Below, piece by piece: positions 2,339-9,906 of a stretch of DNA of 9,906 nt. Both the position numbers and the translations under genes were made by a program. Below the pieces are notes generated by a model. That model was not told where the DNA came from. It did not search any database and saw only the letters and a list, made by a program, of their open reading frames with translations. Numbering within the stretch: position 1 is the stretch's first letter; each line of letters opens with the position of its first letter. Origin of the DNA: Fidelibacterota bacterium (lineage in GTDB: Bacteria; Fidelibacterota; UBA8477); contig JAIPJR010000086.1 of NCBI GenBank assembly GCA_021734045.1, positions 1-9,906 on the forward strand, given 5' to 3'.

Positions 2339-2761
2339 TCAGGGTAAGTTACGCAAACTTTTTACCGGGACATGCCGAAATGTTTGAGCCATGATATCAC
2401 GCACCTGCAAAGGTTTATACAGATAACCATCGGCACCGGAATTGAGCGCCCGCTCAATATTCTCTTCGGTGAGATATCCGGAAATCATGATGATTTTTAC
2501 ATCCTCATCCACTTTGCGAATGCCTTCCAGAACATCCAATCCGTTGCGATCACCCAGTTTAATGTCCAGAAAAATGAGCTTATACGCACCCGACATTACT
2601 CGGCGTAAACCATCGGTGCCGGATCGGGCCACATCCACACGAATATCCATCTCCTCGAACAAATCCTGGAAAAATTCACACACACCACCATCGTCATCCA
2701 CCACCAGCACATAAGCGGTCGGGTTGACGGAGGACTGTTTATGATGATTCAGTTCGTTCAT
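2339..2761 (-). CDS. Receiver-only response regulator
   Basis: A 140-residue protein made of a single CheY-like receiver domain (about 16-130) with no output domain. Visible landmarks are the acidic cluster D22-D24, phospho-acceptor D66 in FLDIKLGDRNG, S94 at the conserved Ser/Thr position, Y113 and the K116-P117 pair. The start ATG overlaps the secretin stop as ATGA, and an AAGGAG ribosome-binding site lies about 7 nt upstream inside the secretin gene, so the start is well fixed. With the sensor kinase 6 bp downstream it forms a two-component pair. Lacking a DNA-binding domain, it most likely acts by protein-protein contact (as PilG/PilH- or CheY-type proteins do) or as a phosphorelay intermediate to the kinase's own receiver. 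The partner is not visible. Confidence 0.93.
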   Translation of the reverse strand: MNELNHHKQSSVNPTAYVLVVDDDGGVCEFFQDLFEEMDIRVDVARSGTDGLRRVMSGAYKLIFLDIKLGDRNGLDVLEGIRKVDEDVKIIMISGYLTEENIERALNSGADGYLYKPLQVRDIMAQTFRHVPVKSLRNLP

Positions 2762-4047
2762 TTTAAACGCTCCTTCAACGCGGATGGAATTGGTGCAATG
2801 GTGCCTGCGTCCTGATCCAGCTCCACGATTTTCGGGGTGAGCATGACCACCAATTCGGTTTTTTGTTTGGTCACCTTCGTTTGACTAAAAAATTCACCCA
2901 CCAACGGAATCGCTCCCAAAATGGGGACCCGTGTTTCAGTCTTCACATCCGATTCCTGCATAATGCCGCCAATAACGATGGTCCTGCCGGCCTTCACCAC
3001 AATCTGCGTTTTGGCTGAGCGGGTGGAGATAATGGGAATTCCATCGGGTGTAAAACCTTGTTGAAAGTTGGCCTGGGGTTCAATTTGAATAGTGATGGTC
3101 GAGTCATTATTAATATGCGGAACTAACTTCAACTGAATAGTGGCATCTTTGAATTCATAAGAGGTTACCCCAAACTGATTTAGTTTTGGATAGGGTATCT
3201 GATCCCCCACTGCGATAGAAGCGGCTTGATTATCCAGCGTCAGCAAGTAGGGCGTGGAAAGCAGGTTCAGGTCATTCACCGTTGAAAGCATTTTGATCGC
3301 TACATCAATATCCATATCCAGAATGCCAATGCCGAGGCCGATTCCCGGCGGACGAATAGGTGACACCGGCAGGTCATTGAGAACGGAGCGCAGACTGAAG
3401 TCGGTTCCCACGGAGATCTTGTCATTTTCTGTAAACCATTGCACACCCCGGTCGTGTCCTTTGCTCAATGATGCTTCAGCGATGGCGCTTTTGATATACA
3501 CCTGGCGGGTGGGTTTGTCCAGATTCACCAGCATATTCTGGATTTTTTCGATTTTTTCCGGTGTGTCCTGATAAATAATCGTATTCGTACGCACATCGGC
3601 AAATAGCTGGCCCACATTGGGTGTGACCAACTTCCCCACAATCCCCGCCATCTCCTTGGCCTGGGCAAACTGACAAGCATAGAAACCAATTTCAGTGGCT
3701 ACGGCAAATGTATTCTGGTCCGCCACCAGATATTTGTTGGGTTCGCTAAGCTCCTGATAACCCAATCCATATAATTCTGCGATAATGCGTAACGCCGCCA
3801 GTGGCTCCACATCATTCAAGTCCAGTGAAATGGATTTACTGCTGATGGCCGGATCGGCGATGAATTTCAGACCGCTTTTTTCACTGATAATTTTCAGAAC
3901 CTGACTGAGCTTCACGTCCTTCACCTTGAGGCTCATGAGCACGGTCTCATTGACTTTGTCAGCGCCGTAGGCCCGCGCCAGCAGCAACAGGAAAGCCAGC
4001 AGTAACAGTATCCCGCGGGCGCTATTCCTCATGGTAATTGACAACAT
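2758..4047 (-). CDS. pilQ: Short secretin of type IV pilus / type II secretion type
   Basis: A 429-residue outer-membrane pore protein through which the pilus or pseudopilus works. It has a signal peptide (hydrophobic 12-24, likely cleavage after AYG at 28), an N0/STN-like domain (about 36-100), one N1-type secretin domain (about 115-180) and the C-terminal secretin core (about 183-410). The core carries the signature VPILGAIPLVGEFF at 374-387 and the TQIVVKAGRTIVIGG strand before it. It is much shorter than typical PilQ or GspD (600-700 residues), lacking AMIN domains and extra N-domain copies. The chosen ATG (4045-4047) overlaps the PilP-like gene by 26 bp and has AGGGA just upstream. ATG at 4030-4032 (MRNSARG) is a real alternative giving a more typical signal peptide. 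pilQ is used from the PilMNOP context; gspD is not excluded. Confidence 0.93.
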   Translation of the reverse strand: MLSITMRNSARGILLLLAFLLLLARAYGADKVNETVLMSLKVKDVKLSQVLKIISEKSGLKFIADPAISSKSISLDLNDVEPLAALRIIAELYGLGYQELSEPNKYLVADQNTFAVATEIGFYACQFAQAKEMAGIVGKLVTPNVGQLFADVRTNTIIYQDTPEKIEKIQNMLVNLDKPTRQVYIKSAIAEASLSKGHDRGVQWFTENDKISVGTDFSLRSVLNDLPVSPIRPPGIGLGIGILDMDIDVAIKMLSTVNDLNLLSTPYLLTLDNQAASIAVGDQIPYPKLNQFGVTSYEFKDATIQLKLVPHINNDSTITIQIEPQANFQQGFTPDGIPIISTRSAKTQIVVKAGRTIVIGGIMQESDVKTETRVPILGAIPLVGEFFSQTKVTKQKTELVVMLTPKIVELDQDAGTIAPIPSALKERLK

Positions 4048-4576
4048 ATTTATCCCTATCGTTTTTCAGTACCACCGTGGTATCCAAAATGGCATACACG
4101 GTATACCCGTTAAAGTCGTCGCCCACCCGGTATAATTCACCATTCATAATGGCGTAGGGCTCCTGAATATCCCACACAATCCCGTTTATAGTCACGCTGG
4201 GGCGCACGATTTTGGGTTTGGGTTTGGGTTTTGGCTTGGGTGTTGTAGTGGTCTTTTGGGGCTTCGGTTTGGGCTTGGGAGGCGGTGGAACCGGATCGAC
4301 CGCCACGGCAAATGGATTCCGAACCTTTTCCGGGGCAACGTTTGCCACCACGGAATCAACCCGTGTCACAAAACCCAGCGGCTGTATTTCCAGCGTATTC
4401 ACCTGCCGGATAAGCGTTTTTATTGTTATTAAATCAATTTCCGGCTGAGCAATCGGTTGCAGGACAATCCGTTCGGCAGACAAATCCGTGAGATTGGGCA
4501 GCCGTGTCATGGCCAGCAGGGTGCTCACCAGGACAACACCGTTAAACAGCAGGAATCCGTGCCGGCTGATTTTCAT
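4022..4576 (-). CDS. pilP: PilP/GspC-like periplasmic bridging protein
   Basis: A 184-residue protein likely to link the PilN-PilO complex to the secretin. Residues 1-7 are basic, 8-24 form a membrane anchor, RNPF at 86-89 resembles the RDPF motif near the PilP core, a Pro-Lys linker spans about 95-124, and a small beta domain fills 126-182 (VTINGIVWD, YAIMNGELYRVGDDF, YTVYAI). That domain matches the homology-region fold shared by PilP and GspC. There is no cysteine at all, so unlike classical PilP it cannot be a lipoprotein; the topology is closer to GspC. The start overlaps the PilO stop as ATGA, with GGGGG a few bases upstream. The assignment rests on C-terminal pattern, gene order and topology, since overall similarity in this family is low. 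Confidence 0.8.
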   Translation of the reverse strand: MKISRHGFLLFNGVVLVSTLLAMTRLPNLTDLSAERIVLQPIAQPEIDLITIKTLIRQVNTLEIQPLGFVTRVDSVVANVAPEKVRNPFAVAVDPVPPPPKPKPKPQKTTTTPKPKPKPKPKIVRPSVTINGIVWDIQEPYAIMNGELYRVGDDFNGYTVYAILDTTVVLKNDRDKYVVNYHEE

Positions 4577-5157
4577 GCGGCCCCCGTCTTTGTAGACCTT
4601 AACACGCCCAACTCCACCGTGAAGGTGTGGATGTCAGCTGTCTTTGTAGGTTCAATATTCAATTTCTCAATCAGAAACCACACCTCATATTCATCCAGAA
4701 TTTTCAGCCATTTCAAAAAGTTGGCATACGTCCCTGACAGACTCACTCTGGCATACAGCTTTTGGTAGGGACCGCCCGCCAGATTCTGCCGCTTGTTCAA
4801 CGGCTCTAGCGTGCTTACCGCCAGTTTTGCTCGTGTAGCAGAATTATCCAGCACCGGCATGAGGGCATTCAAATTGGGTTCACGCAGCAAGCGCTTTTCG
4901 AAATTGTCCTTCAATTGATTCAGATGCGCCACATGCTGATCAATGCTGTCAATGGCGGTCTCGATATCTAACTGAATCAGATTGATATAGGTATTTTCCA
5001 GGTCATCCTGTCCGTCAATCAGGGTGGTGTAATGCTTCTGTAACGGTAAGATTAGCCAATAAATCAAAGCTGCTACCGTTCCCGCGTAAACCACCAGGCC
5101 CACCAAAAACCATGGTAGCGTTACCGCTTTTTTCCAGTCCTGAATCACCCTGCTCAT
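4573..5157 (-). CDS. pilO: PilO-like inner-membrane alignment protein
   Basis: A 194-residue bitopic protein. It has a short cytoplasmic N-terminus, a membrane segment at about 16-38, a predicted coiled coil or helical stalk (about 40-95) and a C-terminal ferredoxin-like domain (about 110-190) containing LYARVSLSGTYANFLKWLK and the following VWFLIEKLNIE strand, the usual PilO pattern. PilO pairs with PilN in the periplasm and contacts PilP. Both ends are coupled by ATGA overlaps, with PilN upstream and the PilP-like gene downstream. Size and layout match the family (about 200 residues). GspM is the type II secretion counterpart and cannot be excluded from sequence alone. Confidence 0.88.
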   Translation of the reverse strand: MSRVIQDWKKAVTLPWFLVGLVVYAGTVAALIYWLILPLQKHYTTLIDGQDDLENTYINLIQLDIETAIDSIDQHVAHLNQLKDNFEKRLLREPNLNALMPVLDNSATRAKLAVSTLEPLNKRQNLAGGPYQKLYARVSLSGTYANFLKWLKILDEYEVWFLIEKLNIEPTKTADIHTFTVELGVLRSTKTGAA

Positions 5158-5753
5158 GGATAATACCCCAGCGTGTAAGTCAGCCGTAGATTGGCGGCGT
5201 CTTTATAAATGCGGTTGTTTTTCACCACCAGCTTTGAGAAGGCATCCCGGGTGGTTGGGGCTTCAGAAAGCATGGCGCGGTAGTCGTCCACGGCGAAAAT
5301 GTCCTGACTTTTGTCCTTGATCACCATATACCCGTCAATGGTAATAGCCGGGGCGTCTTTTACCGTCTTAGCCCGCTCAGGATCATAACTGATGCGGCTC
5401 ACCACCAAATCGGCCGGCAGCATTCCAGCAATCTCCGACAACCGGGCATACCATACGATCGGGCGGTCATGCGCCTGGAGATAGAGCGGAATGTTTTTCG
5501 CAAACCGGTTGCGCTCCGCCACCTTCTTTTCCAGAAAAAGAACCCGGGGTTCAATACTGGCAATCTGCTGGCCAAGCGAACCAGATTGCCGCTGAAAGAC
5601 ATCAGCCACATACGAGAGCGAACCGTACACATTGAGAAATACCACTGCTGTTACCAGCCAGAGTAGTGAATAGAGCAGCGAAGTGACTCGGCGGTAATGA
5701 ATCCGGCGTTGCCGGTCGGCGGTGGTACTGAGAAAATTGAGTGAATAGCGCAT
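5154..5753 (-). CDS. pilN: PilN-like inner-membrane alignment protein
   Basis: A 199-residue protein with a short basic cytoplasmic tail (1-24), a membrane segment at about 25-46, a helical region (about 52-90) and a periplasmic domain including WYARLSEIAGMLPADLVVSRI (101-121), a typical PilN-family stretch. I chose ATG at 5751-5753, 7 bp after the PilM stop. The open frame continues upstream to 5942, but that part lies wholly inside pilM and reads as Trp/Cys-rich nonsense. The Shine-Dalgarno is weak, consistent with coupling to pilM. The tail reads YSLNFLST where classical PilN has an INLLP motif for PilM binding; the Asn and Leu pattern is partly kept and the Pro is lost. PilN partners PilM (cytoplasm) and PilO (periplasm). 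Confidence 0.88.
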   Translation of the reverse strand: MRYSLNFLSTTADRQRRIHYRRVTSLLYSLLWLVTAVVFLNVYGSLSYVADVFQRQSGSLGQQIASIEPRVLFLEKKVAERNRFAKNIPLYLQAHDRPIVWYARLSEIAGMLPADLVVSRISYDPERAKTVKDAPAITIDGYMVIKDKSQDIFAVDDYRAMLSEAPTTRDAFSKLVVKNNRIYKDAANLRLTYTLGYYP

Positions 5754-5760
5754 AATGATA

Positions 5761-6807
5761 TTAATTCCGCAAAGCCATTTCCATCGCCATGCTGTACTGA
5801 TAAGCCAAACCGGTCTCAATCTGCTCACGGGGCAACCGGCCGGTGAGAGGTTCCCAGTAATCACAGGGCAATTTGAGAAACAAATCGGGTGTATCCAGCA
5901 CATGACGCACCAAGTGGTCATTAGCCATGCCACCGGTGGCAATTATCCGGGTGATGGTTTTCCCGGCCTGGAGTTCATAGCGGGCATTGAACCGGAGAAT
6001 GGTGCTGATGAACTGGACCAGAATCTGCCAGATTTCCCGCGCCTCTTTTTCACCACTTTCCTGCTGGGATAAAATGCCGTCAGCGAAGGTCGGGTCTTTG
6101 CGCTGCTGCTCCGCCGTGAGGAAGGGTACACCCCGGTTCCGTACGATAATTCCATTGAGCAAATCACCCCCGAAAGGCAGCACCAGAAACGCCGGATCGG
6201 CGTCCGGCATCACCACGGTATAGGTGGAATGAGTAGCTCCCAGGTGCAGCAGCCCCGCCGGTGATTCCAGATCAGGAAAATCATCCCGAAAGCGTTCCAG
6301 CAGTACCAGGGTTTCCAAATCCAGGAGTGGCACTTCATTCACAAAATTTTTGATGGCCGTCATCGTCATCTCAAAGCGGGATTGCCGCAGTGTACCCACC
6401 AGTACCACCAGACTGCGTTTTTTCCGCTCACGCCGCAGGACCCGGTAGTCAATTTCATAATTTTGAGCTGATTGAGGCAGAAGCGGTCCCAATTCCCAAT
6501 AAATCGTCTGCTTGATCTGCGCATCGTCCACTTCAGGAATCGTGAGAATGAATACATTGTTGTGGGGTGTGGACATGACCAACCGGACAGGTGTTCGCCG
6601 GTAGGGCAGATCTTTCAGGATTTTCCGTAATGCCAGCTTGATGTGCCCGTCCCCCACATCCTCTGGTGTACGGGCCATGTCATCACTGACCAAAGGCTCC
6701 TGGCGGCAGGCGTAAATACTGTTATTGCGAAGGTTAATGGCCACCAGTTTCACCGTATGACCACCAATATCCAGTCCGATACGCAACTTGGGTTTACGGA
6801 AACTCAT
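5761..6807 (-). CDS. pilM: PilM, actin-like cytoplasmic ATP-binding protein
   Basis: A 348-residue FtsA/actin-like protein that sits under the inner membrane and binds the PilN tail. The N-terminal phosphate-1 motif is GLDIGGHTVKL (D13 in this numbering). HLGATHSTYTVV (about 188-199) matches the phosphate-2 region and IIATGGMAND (about 288-297) the adenosine motif. Length fits the family (about 350). I chose ATG at 6805-6807 (MSFRKPK), which overlaps the previous gene's stop as ATGA and has GGAG 9 nt upstream. A GTG at 6820-6822 would add five residues. It is a separate protein rather than fused to PilN as in GspL, which favours a type IV pilus-like arrangement. Confidence 0.92.
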   Translation of the reverse strand: MSFRKPKLRIGLDIGGHTVKLVAINLRNNSIYACRQEPLVSDDMARTPEDVGDGHIKLALRKILKDLPYRRTPVRLVMSTPHNNVFILTIPEVDDAQIKQTIYWELGPLLPQSAQNYEIDYRVLRRERKKRSLVVLVGTLRQSRFEMTMTAIKNFVNEVPLLDLETLVLLERFRDDFPDLESPAGLLHLGATHSTYTVVMPDADPAFLVLPFGGDLLNGIIVRNRGVPFLTAEQQRKDPTFADGILSQQESGEKEAREIWQILVQFISTILRFNARYELQAGKTITRIIATGGMANDHLVRHVLDTPDLFLKLPCDYWEPLTGRLPREQIETGLAYQYSMAMEMALRN

Positions 6808-7739
6808 AGGTCCATACTCCACGAGTTTTTCAAAATGCGTTTGGGCCAGTCGTAGGCTGTCACATCACCAAACCCCGGCGGGTAGTTGTAGTATTTTTCA
6901 TTGGCCAGATCGTTGATATCCAATTTCTGGGAGAGGGAAATATCCACACCCACCAACGGTCCGGTGAGGGTACCGCCTTTCATATCAAAGGGTCCCGAAC
7001 TGTAAATCGGTCCGCGGATGATAATACCCGGTGTGGTGGAAATATCTGCCGTGGAATCCGCCACGATAAGAGCCGGGAGATAAACGCCATTGGTATCGGG
7101 AATGGCCTGAAGTGTCACATCGGTTCCCACTACCTTCAATTTCCCCATCACCACCAGCGTGCCCTGTAGGGAGGCGCCCTGCTTCAGAAAGACATTTTTT
7201 TGTACAAAGTGAATCCCCGGTGTCATGACACTATCGAAATCCACATTGGCTTCGTTATACACGGCCACAGCATTGCTCATGTAATAGGACGTATCTACCT
7301 GGGGAAGAAAGGGAAACTGACGAATACCGTGCCCTTCAAGCAGGGTCACGGAGTAAGATGAGGTATCAATATCATCCCGGAAGGCCACACCATGATTGAA
7401 GGGGTGCATATCCTCCAGCGCGACCGTGAGGGATTTTCCATAACCGGACAGGGTGAGAATTTGCGTGGTCTCATCATAAGATGCGGTGACACCGTCACGG
7501 GAAAAATTGGCCAGACTGTCGGGTCCGGCATTCAGACGAAACAAAGCTTCATTTAGCACCGATTCAATGGTGATATCGATGGTTCTGGCTTGCTTCGATT
7601 TAACCGATTCAATTCTGAAATGGGCAGCCATACTCAGCGCTGCCATACCTGCCAGAGAAAATATCACGAAATAAACCATAGCGATGACCAGAACGGATCC
7701 GCCCTGATTTTTGTGATAATATCTGACACAGGTAAACAT
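6804..7739 (-). CDS. PilX-like membrane protein with beta-rich C-terminal region
   Basis: A 311-residue protein. Residues 1-12 are polar and basic, GGSVLVIAMVYFVIF begins a hydrophobic segment (13-38), and this GG-plus-hydrophobic start resembles PilX-type minor pilins rather than canonical GFTLVE prepilins. After a helical extension to about 72, the rest is beta-rich. Residues 175-272 hold short repeating strands (FLKQGASLQGTLVVMGKLKVVG, then IIIRGPIYSSGPFDMKGGTLTG) reminiscent of bactofilin-like or beta-helical folds. It lies between the peptidase (11 bp gap) and pilM (ATGA overlap), so it probably belongs to the filament, perhaps as a minor component displayed at the tip. No clear ribosome-binding site precedes the ATG. 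Role is inferred from position and N-terminus only. Confidence 0.75.
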   Translation of the reverse strand: MFTCVRYYHKNQGGSVLVIAMVYFVIFSLAGMAALSMAAHFRIESVKSKQARTIDITIESVLNEALFRLNAGPDSLANFSRDGVTASYDETTQILTLSGYGKSLTVALEDMHPFNHGVAFRDDIDTSSYSVTLLEGHGIRQFPFLPQVDTSYYMSNAVAVYNEANVDFDSVMTPGIHFVQKNVFLKQGASLQGTLVVMGKLKVVGTDVTLQAIPDTNGVYLPALIVADSTADISTTPGIIIRGPIYSSGPFDMKGGTLTGPLVGVDISLSQKLDINDLANEKYYNYPPGFGDVTAYDWPKRILKNSWSMDL

Positions 7740-7750
7740 CGTGTTTGTGC

Positions 7751-8551
7751 TCAGTGAATGAACCGGTAATAAAGGTTGAGAATGTCATTGCCGAAGAGAA
7801 TGACCACCAATCCGGCAGTGGAGAGTAGTGCGGGAAAGCGGGGGAGAAATTGCTGCGAAGATTTTTGCAGCTTATACACACCAAAAATTCCCAATATGCT
7901 GCCGATGAACCACGCCAGTAAAATGGCCAAGAGCAGCTTCGGTAGTCCCAGAAACAGTCCCAGCACCGCGGCAAACTTGATTTCACTAAAATCAGCCCGC
8001 TGCTCCCCGGGCAATAGGGAGCGCAGCAGGTTGTAGACGATTAAAACCAGTGCACCCACCACCAGACTGGCCAGAGCATAGGGAAATTCCGGCTGACTAT
8101 AGGCTAATACATAAATCATCCCCAGGGCGCCCATCCCCAGCAGCAGATTATCCGGTAAGACCCGGCTTTCCAGCTCGATAATAATGATGACGATGAGCCC
8201 GACACCAAACAGCATGGTAATGAATGCCGGGTAACTCCACCCATACCGCAGGATAAAAACAGCCACCCAGGCAATTTCTAAAATTTCGGTAATAATCTGG
8301 CGTTTCGGCCATTGGGCACCGCAGTAGGGACATTTTCCATGGTGCCGGAGATAACTCCACACCGGAATCAAATCCTGCCAACTCAGTGCGGTGGCACAAC
8401 TTCGGCAGTAAGGTTTGGGCGAAACCAGGGACTGATGACGAGGAATCCGGTCAATGGAATTATTGCTCAGAATGGCAAACACCGAGCCGGCAATCCACAC
8501 ACCCAGCAAGCTGAGTAGCGTCTCAATTCCGGGGGACAATAAGCCGGTCAT
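7751..8551 (-). CDS. pilD: Prepilin peptidase-like protein with Glu at both catalytic positions
   Basis: A 266-residue polytopic membrane protein of the PilD/GspO family, which cleaves and N-methylates prepilins at the cytoplasmic membrane face. The N-terminal zinc module is complete: C49-x2-C52 and C74-x2-C77, with PKPYCRSC and GKCPYCG. Several membrane helices follow. The first active-site motif reads IIELESRVLPD (E126) where family members have IDLxxxxLPD, and the second reads ADFSEIKFAAVLG (E190) where GxGDxKL is expected. Both catalytic Asp positions are thus Glu, 64 residues apart as in TcpJ (D125/D189). Codons are GAG at 8174-8176 and GAA at 7982-7984. The gene overlaps the upstream prepilin gene by 29 bp. 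Family membership is certain; activity is open. Confidence 0.9.
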   Translation of the reverse strand: MTGLLSPGIETLLSLLGVWIAGSVFAILSNNSIDRIPRHQSLVSPKPYCRSCATALSWQDLIPVWSYLRHHGKCPYCGAQWPKRQIITEILEIAWVAVFILRYGWSYPAFITMLFGVGLIVIIIIELESRVLPDNLLLGMGALGMIYVLAYSQPEFPYALASLVVGALVLIVYNLLRSLLPGEQRADFSEIKFAAVLGLFLGLPKLLLAILLAWFIGSILGIFGVYKLQKSSQQFLPRFPALLSTAGLVVILFGNDILNLYYRFIH

Positions 8552-9026
8552 AGCTCAGGGAATCCTCATCGTTAAAAATTGTTGTCTGCAACCGTATTGC
8601 ATCCATCTGACCCGGCATGCGGCGGAAACGCACCTGGCTGACAGGCGCGTCCAGCGGATAATGATCCGTCAGACCCACCTGCCAGTTGAATTGCTGACCA
8701 GCCATAGCCAGTCGAACCCAGGTGCTGTCGGGTAGGATTAGATGTAGAATGGTCCCGTCATTCGTGCGCGTATCATTGATCTCGTCCGTAGCGTTTGCAT
8801 AGATGGCGACTGAATCACCGTGAGCATTGGCGATATAGCGCTGGGTCCAGAGATCCAGCACCATCAGATCACGATAAAGGCTGAGACGATCATTCAATTC
8901 CGCCGTCTGCTGACGACTTAAAAAGAGAATGGCGGCAAATGTGAGCAGCAAAATGGTGGAAATGGTCATGCCGGTGCTTAACTCCACCAGCGTGAATCCC
9001 GCTTCCTGTCCATATCGCGTAGTCAT
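8523..9026 (-). CDS. Prepilin-like protein (minor pilin / pseudopilin)
   Basis: A 167-residue protein starting MTTRYGQEAG followed by FTLVELSTGMTISTILLL. This is a type III prepilin signal with cleavage expected between G10 and F11, Glu at mature position 5 and a hydrophobic helix of about 25 residues. The remaining part is a variable globular domain (LDLWTQRYIANAHGDSV onward), similar in layout to PulJ/PilW-type minor pseudopilins. I chose ATG at 9024-9026, 5 bp after the previous stop, because it gives a normal 10-residue leader. A TTG at 9045-9047 would add seven residues. It precedes the peptidase gene that would process it. Confidence 0.88.
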   Translation of the reverse strand: MTTRYGQEAGFTLVELSTGMTISTILLLTFAAILFLSRQQTAELNDRLSLYRDLMVLDLWTQRYIANAHGDSVAIYANATDEINDTRTNDGTILHLILPDSTWVRLAMAGQQFNWQVGLTDHYPLDAPVSQVRFRRMPGQMDAIRLQTTIFNDEDSLSYDRLIVPRN

Positions 9027-9031
9027 TACAG

Positions 9032-9487
9032 TCACTGCCAATCCCAACCCCAGTCCCGCTGGGGTGAATAAATGAACTCCAAGCTGTCGGTTGTATTACC
9101 GGGCTGAAACCAGGAGAATGTCACATTCACCCGGGCGTAATCCGGAACGGTCAAATCTGTTGGGGAGACATCATCCAGGGAATCATCAACCCAGGTGATC
9201 TGGGTGGTGCGATATCCCACCAGGTTTCCACGATAGAAGGGAACATTGGCTTCGGGCAGACTATCGGCGAGCGCACGGAAGCCAACGGATAAACATCGCT
9301 CATACTGTTGTTGCATGAGAATGTGTGCCCACTGGTTCCGTGCGGCCCGCTCGATCTCGTTTCGGGAGGCGAAAAAATAGTGCGTCGTCCCCAGTAAAAT
9401 GACGGCTAACAGCATCGTGGCAATCAAGGACTCTACCAAAGTAAACCCACCTGAACGCGCTGCCTGAATTGTTAGCCGCCATCTCAT
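9032..9487 (-). CDS. Prepilin-like protein (minor pilin / pseudopilin)
   Basis: A 151-residue protein with the leader MRWRLTIQAARSGG and then FTLVESLIATMLLAVILLG, so cleavage is expected after G14, with Glu at mature position 5. The mature hydrophobic helix leads into a small globular domain rich in Asp, Thr and aromatic residues and ending in WGWDWQ. Layout resembles PilV/GspI-type minor components. The start has GGAG 7 nt upstream, a good ribosome-binding site. It follows the major pilin gene after a 42-bp gap containing a hairpin, and the next prepilin gene begins 5 bp downstream. Confidence 0.88.
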   Translation of the reverse strand: MRWRLTIQAARSGGFTLVESLIATMLLAVILLGTTHYFFASRNEIERAARNQWAHILMQQQYERCLSVGFRALADSLPEANVPFYRGNLVGYRTTQITWVDDSLDDVSPTDLTVPDYARVNVTFSWFQPGNTTDSLEFIYSPQRDWGWDWQ

Positions 9488-9529: not shown

Positions 9530-9906
9530 TTACTCTACACCACCAGCAAAAGTGCCAGTATGATCCAGGGTCCGATCGGACTCCAGAATCCCTGCATCAT
9601 CACAGGTGATGGTGTAAGTTGCTGAATCTGACACGATGGTAAAAAGACTATCGGCGGTGAAATATTTATTACCACCGGATAATTCAGTCTCTTTAATCCC
9701 TATCGATGCCTTACCTGCCCCACTCCCTGCTACCTGGGTTCCGGCAGATAAGGTTGGGTACTTCCCATTCTCAGCATAGTACACCCGCAGCGCTGTGCGA
9801 ATGGTTCCCAATGCCGCATCGGCTTCACTCATTTTGGCTTTCTGCACATTGGATGTGTAAATGGGTACACCCACCGCAGCCAGGATACCGATAATGACCA
9901 GTACGA
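9530..9906 (-). CDS. Major type IV pilin / pseudopilin, 5' end missing
   Basis: The gene runs off the right edge; 124 complete codons are visible. Translated from the edge, the protein begins VLVIIGILAAVGVPIYTSN, the conserved second half of the pilin hydrophobic helix, then KAKMSEADAALGTIRTALRVYYAENGKYPT, typical of the alpha-1 helix of PilA/GspG-like subunits. The missing part should be the leader peptide and roughly the first 10 mature residues (FTLIE-type). The C-terminal domain is Gly/Ser/Thr-rich with a single cysteine (TYTITCDDAG), so there is no disulfide loop as in Pseudomonas PilA. A GTG at 9872-9874 falls inside the helix and is not the true start. It is probably the most abundant subunit of the filament. 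Confidence 0.9.
   Translation of the reverse strand, partial: VLVIIGILAAVGVPIYTSNVQKAKMSEADAALGTIRTALRVYYAENGKYPTLSAGTQVAGSGAGKASIGIKETELSGGNKYFTADSLFTIVSDSATYTITCDDAGILESDRTLDHTGTFAGGVE

Follow-up and report, generated by a model that had tools for sequence, protein, structure and literature searches.

The window analysed here is the whole 9,906-nucleotide stretch of a contig from a 2.54 Mb MAG of an uncultured, marine-type bacterium whose named nearest relatives are Candidatus Neomarinimicrobiota. On its minus strand it encodes a 266-aa homologue of the A24 prepilin peptidases (7751-8551) that carries glutamate at both positions of the catalytic aspartates. Judged by its domains, its place in the tree and its gene order, the protein is a member of the A24A homology family; read against its aligned homologues, it is a conserved, selected prepilin-peptidase variant that fails the catalytic definition of that family. 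We consider it probable that this is a repurposed prepilin peptidase: the orthologous enzyme of its operon slot would no longer cut but would still handle pilins, while another enzyme would cut in trans. We found such a variant described nowhere in the literature searched, which did not extend to most subscription journals.

The translation of 7751-8551(-) matched the Pfam domains A24_N_bact (residues 21-102; 2.3e-18, 66.5 bits) and Peptidase_A24 (residues 114-222; 2.7e-08, 34.6 bits), both above the curated cut-offs, whereas NCBIfam gave only a weak zinc-finger match below its cut-off. The sequence-only reading had proposed that both catalytic aspartates are replaced by glutamate and that the GxG glycines are gone, and both proposals were confirmed by translation and alignment with homologues. 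Glu126 (codon GAG, 8174-8176, minus strand), within IIELESRVLPD (first residue 124), and Glu190 (codon GAA, 7982-7984, minus strand), within ADFSEIKF (first residue 186), fall gap-free in the first and second (GxGD) catalytic columns, and in this alignment the two catalytic aspartates are absent from the window protein. At the GxGD position it reads DFSE, so that the motif is absent, with D187-F188-S189 (7985-7993, minus strand) where GxG is expected. The further claim that the surrounding motifs are kept stood for the zinc cysteines but not for GxG, PFGP, GSFLN..RLP or RYPxVE, all of which are altered. The zinc/methyltransferase segment (8321-8407, minus strand; roles per PMC3584216) contains a CxxC...CxxC site formed by C49, C52, C74 and C77, with a Gly and a basic residue beside the third Cys (G72-K73-C74). 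In PilD, methylation depends on zinc whereas cleavage does not, and the Gly and basic residue beside the third Cys likewise contribute to methylation and not to cleavage (PMC3584216). The N-domain motifs GSFLN..RLP, DNIP and RYPxVE are altered in the window protein at columns 27, 61 and 85.

A profile built from close relatives was used to search 245 genomes from the phylum Candidatus Neomarinimicrobiota. It delimited a group, called here the E-clade, of 14 genomes in six families, whose full-length members scored at least 316 bits while everything else scored at most 134; the copy of one genome (G002) is divided across two contigs. Any confinement of the clade to this phylum is at most tentative, the one scan of a wider genome collection having used narrow patterns. 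The second catalytic column is E in every E-clade row covering it, and no D occurs at either column anywhere in the clade; among the other A24 proteins of the phylum comparison, both columns are D (D/D) in 68/68 and G189 is present in 68/68. Co-variation of the two glutamates (E/E) was found in five families (f1, f17, f20, f21 and f28) and failed in a single genus, f2/g3, whose six genomes have T, I or L at the first column. E/E as a clade-wide rule was thus rejected, and the inferred older state within the clade is E/E, the T/I/L forms lying in one genus. Like GxG, the C-terminal PFGP motif, which D/D proteins have as such or in close variants, is lost clade-wide, and GSFLN..RLP, DNIP and RYPxVE are altered. 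Across 12 diverse aligned members 48 columns are invariant, including C49, C52, C74, C77, G72, K73, E128, R130, E190 and K192; the split G002 copy has His at 73. The pattern [DE]187, E128, E190, K192 is fixed in the clade. PF06750 matched 12/12 members and PF01478 7/12, the latter not being recognised in g3 members.

Two escapes from this result had been foreseen. The first, that other aspartates such as D134 or D187 serve the active site, was not supported, as neither is a conserved Asp: D134 lies in a non-catalytic (P)D/N column that varies among D/D enzymes, and column 187, acidic clade-wide, is Glu in 8/14 E-clade rows covering it. The second, a sequencing or assembly artefact, could appeal to the origin of the contig in a MAG; it is refuted by the agreement of independent MAGs from several families, including a 92%-identical MAG that is also E/E and in which codon 126 differs synonymously, and we give it practically no credence. 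Two further observations concern A24 diversity in the phylum. A separate D/D group in f2 reads ALGD where GxGD is usual around the second Asp (G006, G008, G013, G015 and G018; L120-L122, L124 and L125), and one genome (G102) encodes at least five A24 proteins, four D/D and the E/E one.

The gene lies in a type IV pilus operon, all genes of which are on the minus strand of the window. Upstream are a PilA/GspG-like major pilin, A (9530-9904, its 5' end lost at the contig end), and the minor pilins V (9032-9487, leader ...RSGG|FTLVE) and W (8523-9047, leader ...QEAG|FTLVE), the last overlapping the A24 gene by 29 bases. Downstream follow the PilX/GspK-like pilin X (6804-7739, leader ...KNQGG|SVLVI, no Glu5), PilM (5761-6822, Pfam domain search), PilN (5154-5753, likely start ATG at MRYSLNF), PilO-like (4573-5157) and PilP-like (4022-4576) proteins assigned by position and homology across loci, and the PilQ secretin (2758-4047, Pfam domain search). 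A response regulator (2339-2761) and a hybrid sensor kinase (806-2332) are conserved at the operon end. In sufficiently complete loci, some others being cut by contig ends, the order reads B-C-A-V-W-A24-X-M-N-O-P-Q with regulators at both ends and the A24 gene between W and X; X is missing from two g3 loci. As a side observation, the regulator and kinase at 806-2761 are fixed at the downstream end across families and relatives have an NtrC-type regulator upstream of PilB, an arrangement that may reflect dedicated control of the filament system. Next to the operon, 42-635 encodes a conserved membrane-anchored protein with no Pfam match that is 93% identical in G001.

In the nearest D/D relatives (G242, G244, G039, G233, G235, G238, G234, G236, G030 (f9); G056 (f6)), the A24 gene stands in this very slot of the same operon. 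In the tree the E-clade is monophyletic (100/100) and nested with these D/D same-slot enzymes (100/99), on a stem branch of 3.0 changes per site. Because the nearest Asp/Asp homologues fill the same slot, the loss of the aspartates is, as judged from this synteny, a change that arose in place in the operon's own prepilin peptidase.

The E/E protein is under strongly purifying selection. Between the window and G001, dN/dS was 0.037 (0.026 for the N-terminal part and 0.040 for the C-terminal part), resembling the values for PilM, PilN and PilQ of the same operon. A pair from f20 gave 0.14 at low divergence, and in g3 pairs synonymous sites were saturated. Relaxed constraint in the protease half alone was considered and rejected, the ratio of N- to C-domain identity being similar in the E-clade and in the D/D same-slot enzymes. 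Constraint on the C-terminal domain is about the same as on the N-terminal one, and the former therefore presumably still does something. That the protein is a decaying relic heading for loss is very improbable. The long stem branch, the further loss of E126 in f2/g3 and the failure of PF01478 in g3 members could be read in this way; however, the dN/dS within the genus contradicts decay, the reading frames are intact, the slot is fixed in the loci and the 48 invariant columns persist. The earlier argument against random decay is thus upheld, E/E being a lineage feature in five families.

A second canonical D/D peptidase, as one branch of the sequence-only reading supposed, was found in every E-clade genome: 14/14 encode at least one D/D A24 protein elsewhere. 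Among genomes with a D/D enzyme in the slot, by PF01478 and PF06750, another A24 protein was present in 1/10 (G039 alone), one of the ten (G030) having been checked with one of the two A24 searches only. With nine of these ten genomes, the comparison (14/14 vs 1/9) gave a Fisher p of 1.8e-5, to be read with the qualification that the MAGs are incomplete and that families do not count as independent. Where their surroundings could be read, the extra D/D peptidases lie mostly in a second filament system, typically ordered secretin-PilT-PilT-regulator-A24-PilB. The window genome has two, one with PilT and PilB (C112) and one with PilB, PilC and a secretin (C117).

These results can be accommodated by the reading that we prefer. 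The operon's own prepilin peptidase would have lost both aspartates, GxG and PFGP in place, while its Zn-Cys4/Gly-Lys-Cys part would have been retained under purifying selection. It would no longer cleave leaders, and the A, V, W and X prepilins would be cut by the Asp/Asp enzyme of the second type IV filament system. The leaders of the operon pilins are still of the canonical G|FTLVE type, so that a D/D enzyme acting in trans could process them; prepilin peptidases are known that process pilins of other systems (PMC4471445, PMC12075869). The E/E protein would still bind the operon pilins and either N-methylate them or hold them for assembly, methylation being perhaps the most natural surviving activity and docking for assembly the alternative. 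Against repurposing stand the constraint on the C-terminal domain and the retention of E126 in five families, for which a loss of proteolysis would not by itself account.

Proteolysis by the E/E protein itself appears unlikely, given the loss of GxG and PFGP and data on MCMJR1, in which D162E and D220E abolish activity and G219A, at the Gly preceding the second Asp, slows it (PMC2947513); MCMJR1 is a presenilin-like GxGD protease and no A24 enzyme, so these substitutions come from another family. In a glutamate-based peptidase, Glu126/Glu190, or Glu190 with the invariant Glu128 or the acidic residue 187, would make up a working carboxylate pair, and its specificity would be narrowed, perhaps for X with its G|S leader and no Glu5. 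We regard such an enzyme as rather unlikely. It would account for the retention of E/E in five families, with a synonymous change at codon 126, and for the fixation of [DE]187, E128, E190 and K192.

The pilin X adds a further point. All five E/E families, and the D/D loci that could be read, have an X leader with G|S or G|F at its end. In f2/g3, every X whose start could be read, about 20 copies from six genomes with some scattered through the genome, has its Met right at the mature helix; in most cases a stop codon or a ribosome-binding site lies immediately before it. X has multiplied in g3, where each genome has about 3-6 copies and many of them lie elsewhere than in the operon (L094:6482-7453(-), L094:7815-8798(-), L095:3290-4279(+), L159-L174). 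The loss of E126 and the loss of the X leader thus coincide in one lineage, and E126 is lost only where the X copies found are leaderless and need no cutting. Such a coincidence would be expected if E126 were linked to cutting or holding the X leader, but the co-loss is a single evolutionary event and carries no statistical weight. Because five families keep Glu126 together with a leadered X and the genus with leaderless X lost Glu126, a two-glutamate GxGD-fold membrane protease dedicated to this minor pilin can be envisaged, an idea that we find slightly less likely still than a glutamate peptidase in general. Against a glutamate peptidase, every genome has a D/D enzyme that could take care of the cutting. 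Between a glutamate-based peptidase and another role plus a second enzyme, the two branches of the sequence-only reading, we favour the latter because one genus has lost the first Glu, GxG and PFGP are gone, and D-to-E kills MCMJR1.

A narrower form of the repurposing that we prefer, whose confidence overlaps with that of the broader one, is a monofunctional pilin N-methyltransferase, in which the D/D enzyme would cleave and the E/E protein methylate; we hold it only tentatively. It is consistent with the invariance, in the 12 aligned members, of the zinc cysteines and of the Gly and basic residue that precede the third Cys; in PilD these residues matter for methylation (PMC3584216). It is also in line with the D/D partners of the window's genus, in which Ala or Glu occupies the methylation-glycine column, but most D/D partners in other families retain Gly-Lys/Arg-Cys; a general division of labour by this glycine was therefore rejected, being seen in the window's genus only. 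The alteration of other N-domain hallmarks (GSFLN, N61 and RYPxVE) likewise means that methyltransferase activity is not assured. In the same genus, the N-terminal domain of the PilT-adjacent D/D peptidase (L001/L104 = G000:C112; L117 = G002) matches weakly (35 bits) and Glu stands in its methylation-glycine column, which suggests that this enzyme may cleave without methylating.

Compared with PilD/GspO/TcpJ (MEROPS A24A; PF06750 + PF01478), the window protein shares the two-domain architecture, the Zn-Cys4 site, the position in a pilus operon and orthology to D/D enzymes of the same operon, but differs in its replaced catalytic Asp, GxG and PFGP and its altered GSFLN..RLP and RYPxVE. An AlphaFold2 model (pLDDT 66, low confidence) was a helical bundle. 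With this model, a Foldseek search of the PDB returned nothing significant; VIA-align of its residues 106-264 gave FlaK (3s0x) as the best match (Z 9.7, rmsd 4.3, 147 aligned), which would agree with homology but, in the case of a helical bundle, is no proof of it. This low-confidence match would be a likeness to the archaeal FlaK/PibD GxGD peptidases and presenilin/SPP; unlike them, the window protein lacks an Asp dyad and GxGD, and FlaK has no Zn domain. Searching solved structures by sequence returned no prepilin peptidase and no methyltransferase-domain structure, the only matches being chance ones to zinc fingers. The loss of catalytic residues in a conserved, selected protein beside active relatives recalls pseudopeptidases and other non-peptidase homologues, except that here a second enzymatic domain may survive. 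Among prepilin peptidases, the literature searched yielded no such case, most subscription journals lying outside its scope.

According to one review, the two aspartates are universally conserved among prepilin peptidases, and what pilin N-methylation is for has stayed a mystery after 40 years (PMC10191384). A selected lineage that lacks the protease residues but keeps the zinc/methyltransferase part and the operon slot seems to be a case in which nature has uncoupled the two activities, and its D/D, E/E and X/E orthologues can be compared in one syntenic position. Such a lineage also suggests that the presence of a further peptidase allows a filament system to dispense with its own. The E-clade would make both the methylation question and possible glutamate-based GxGD catalysis testable.
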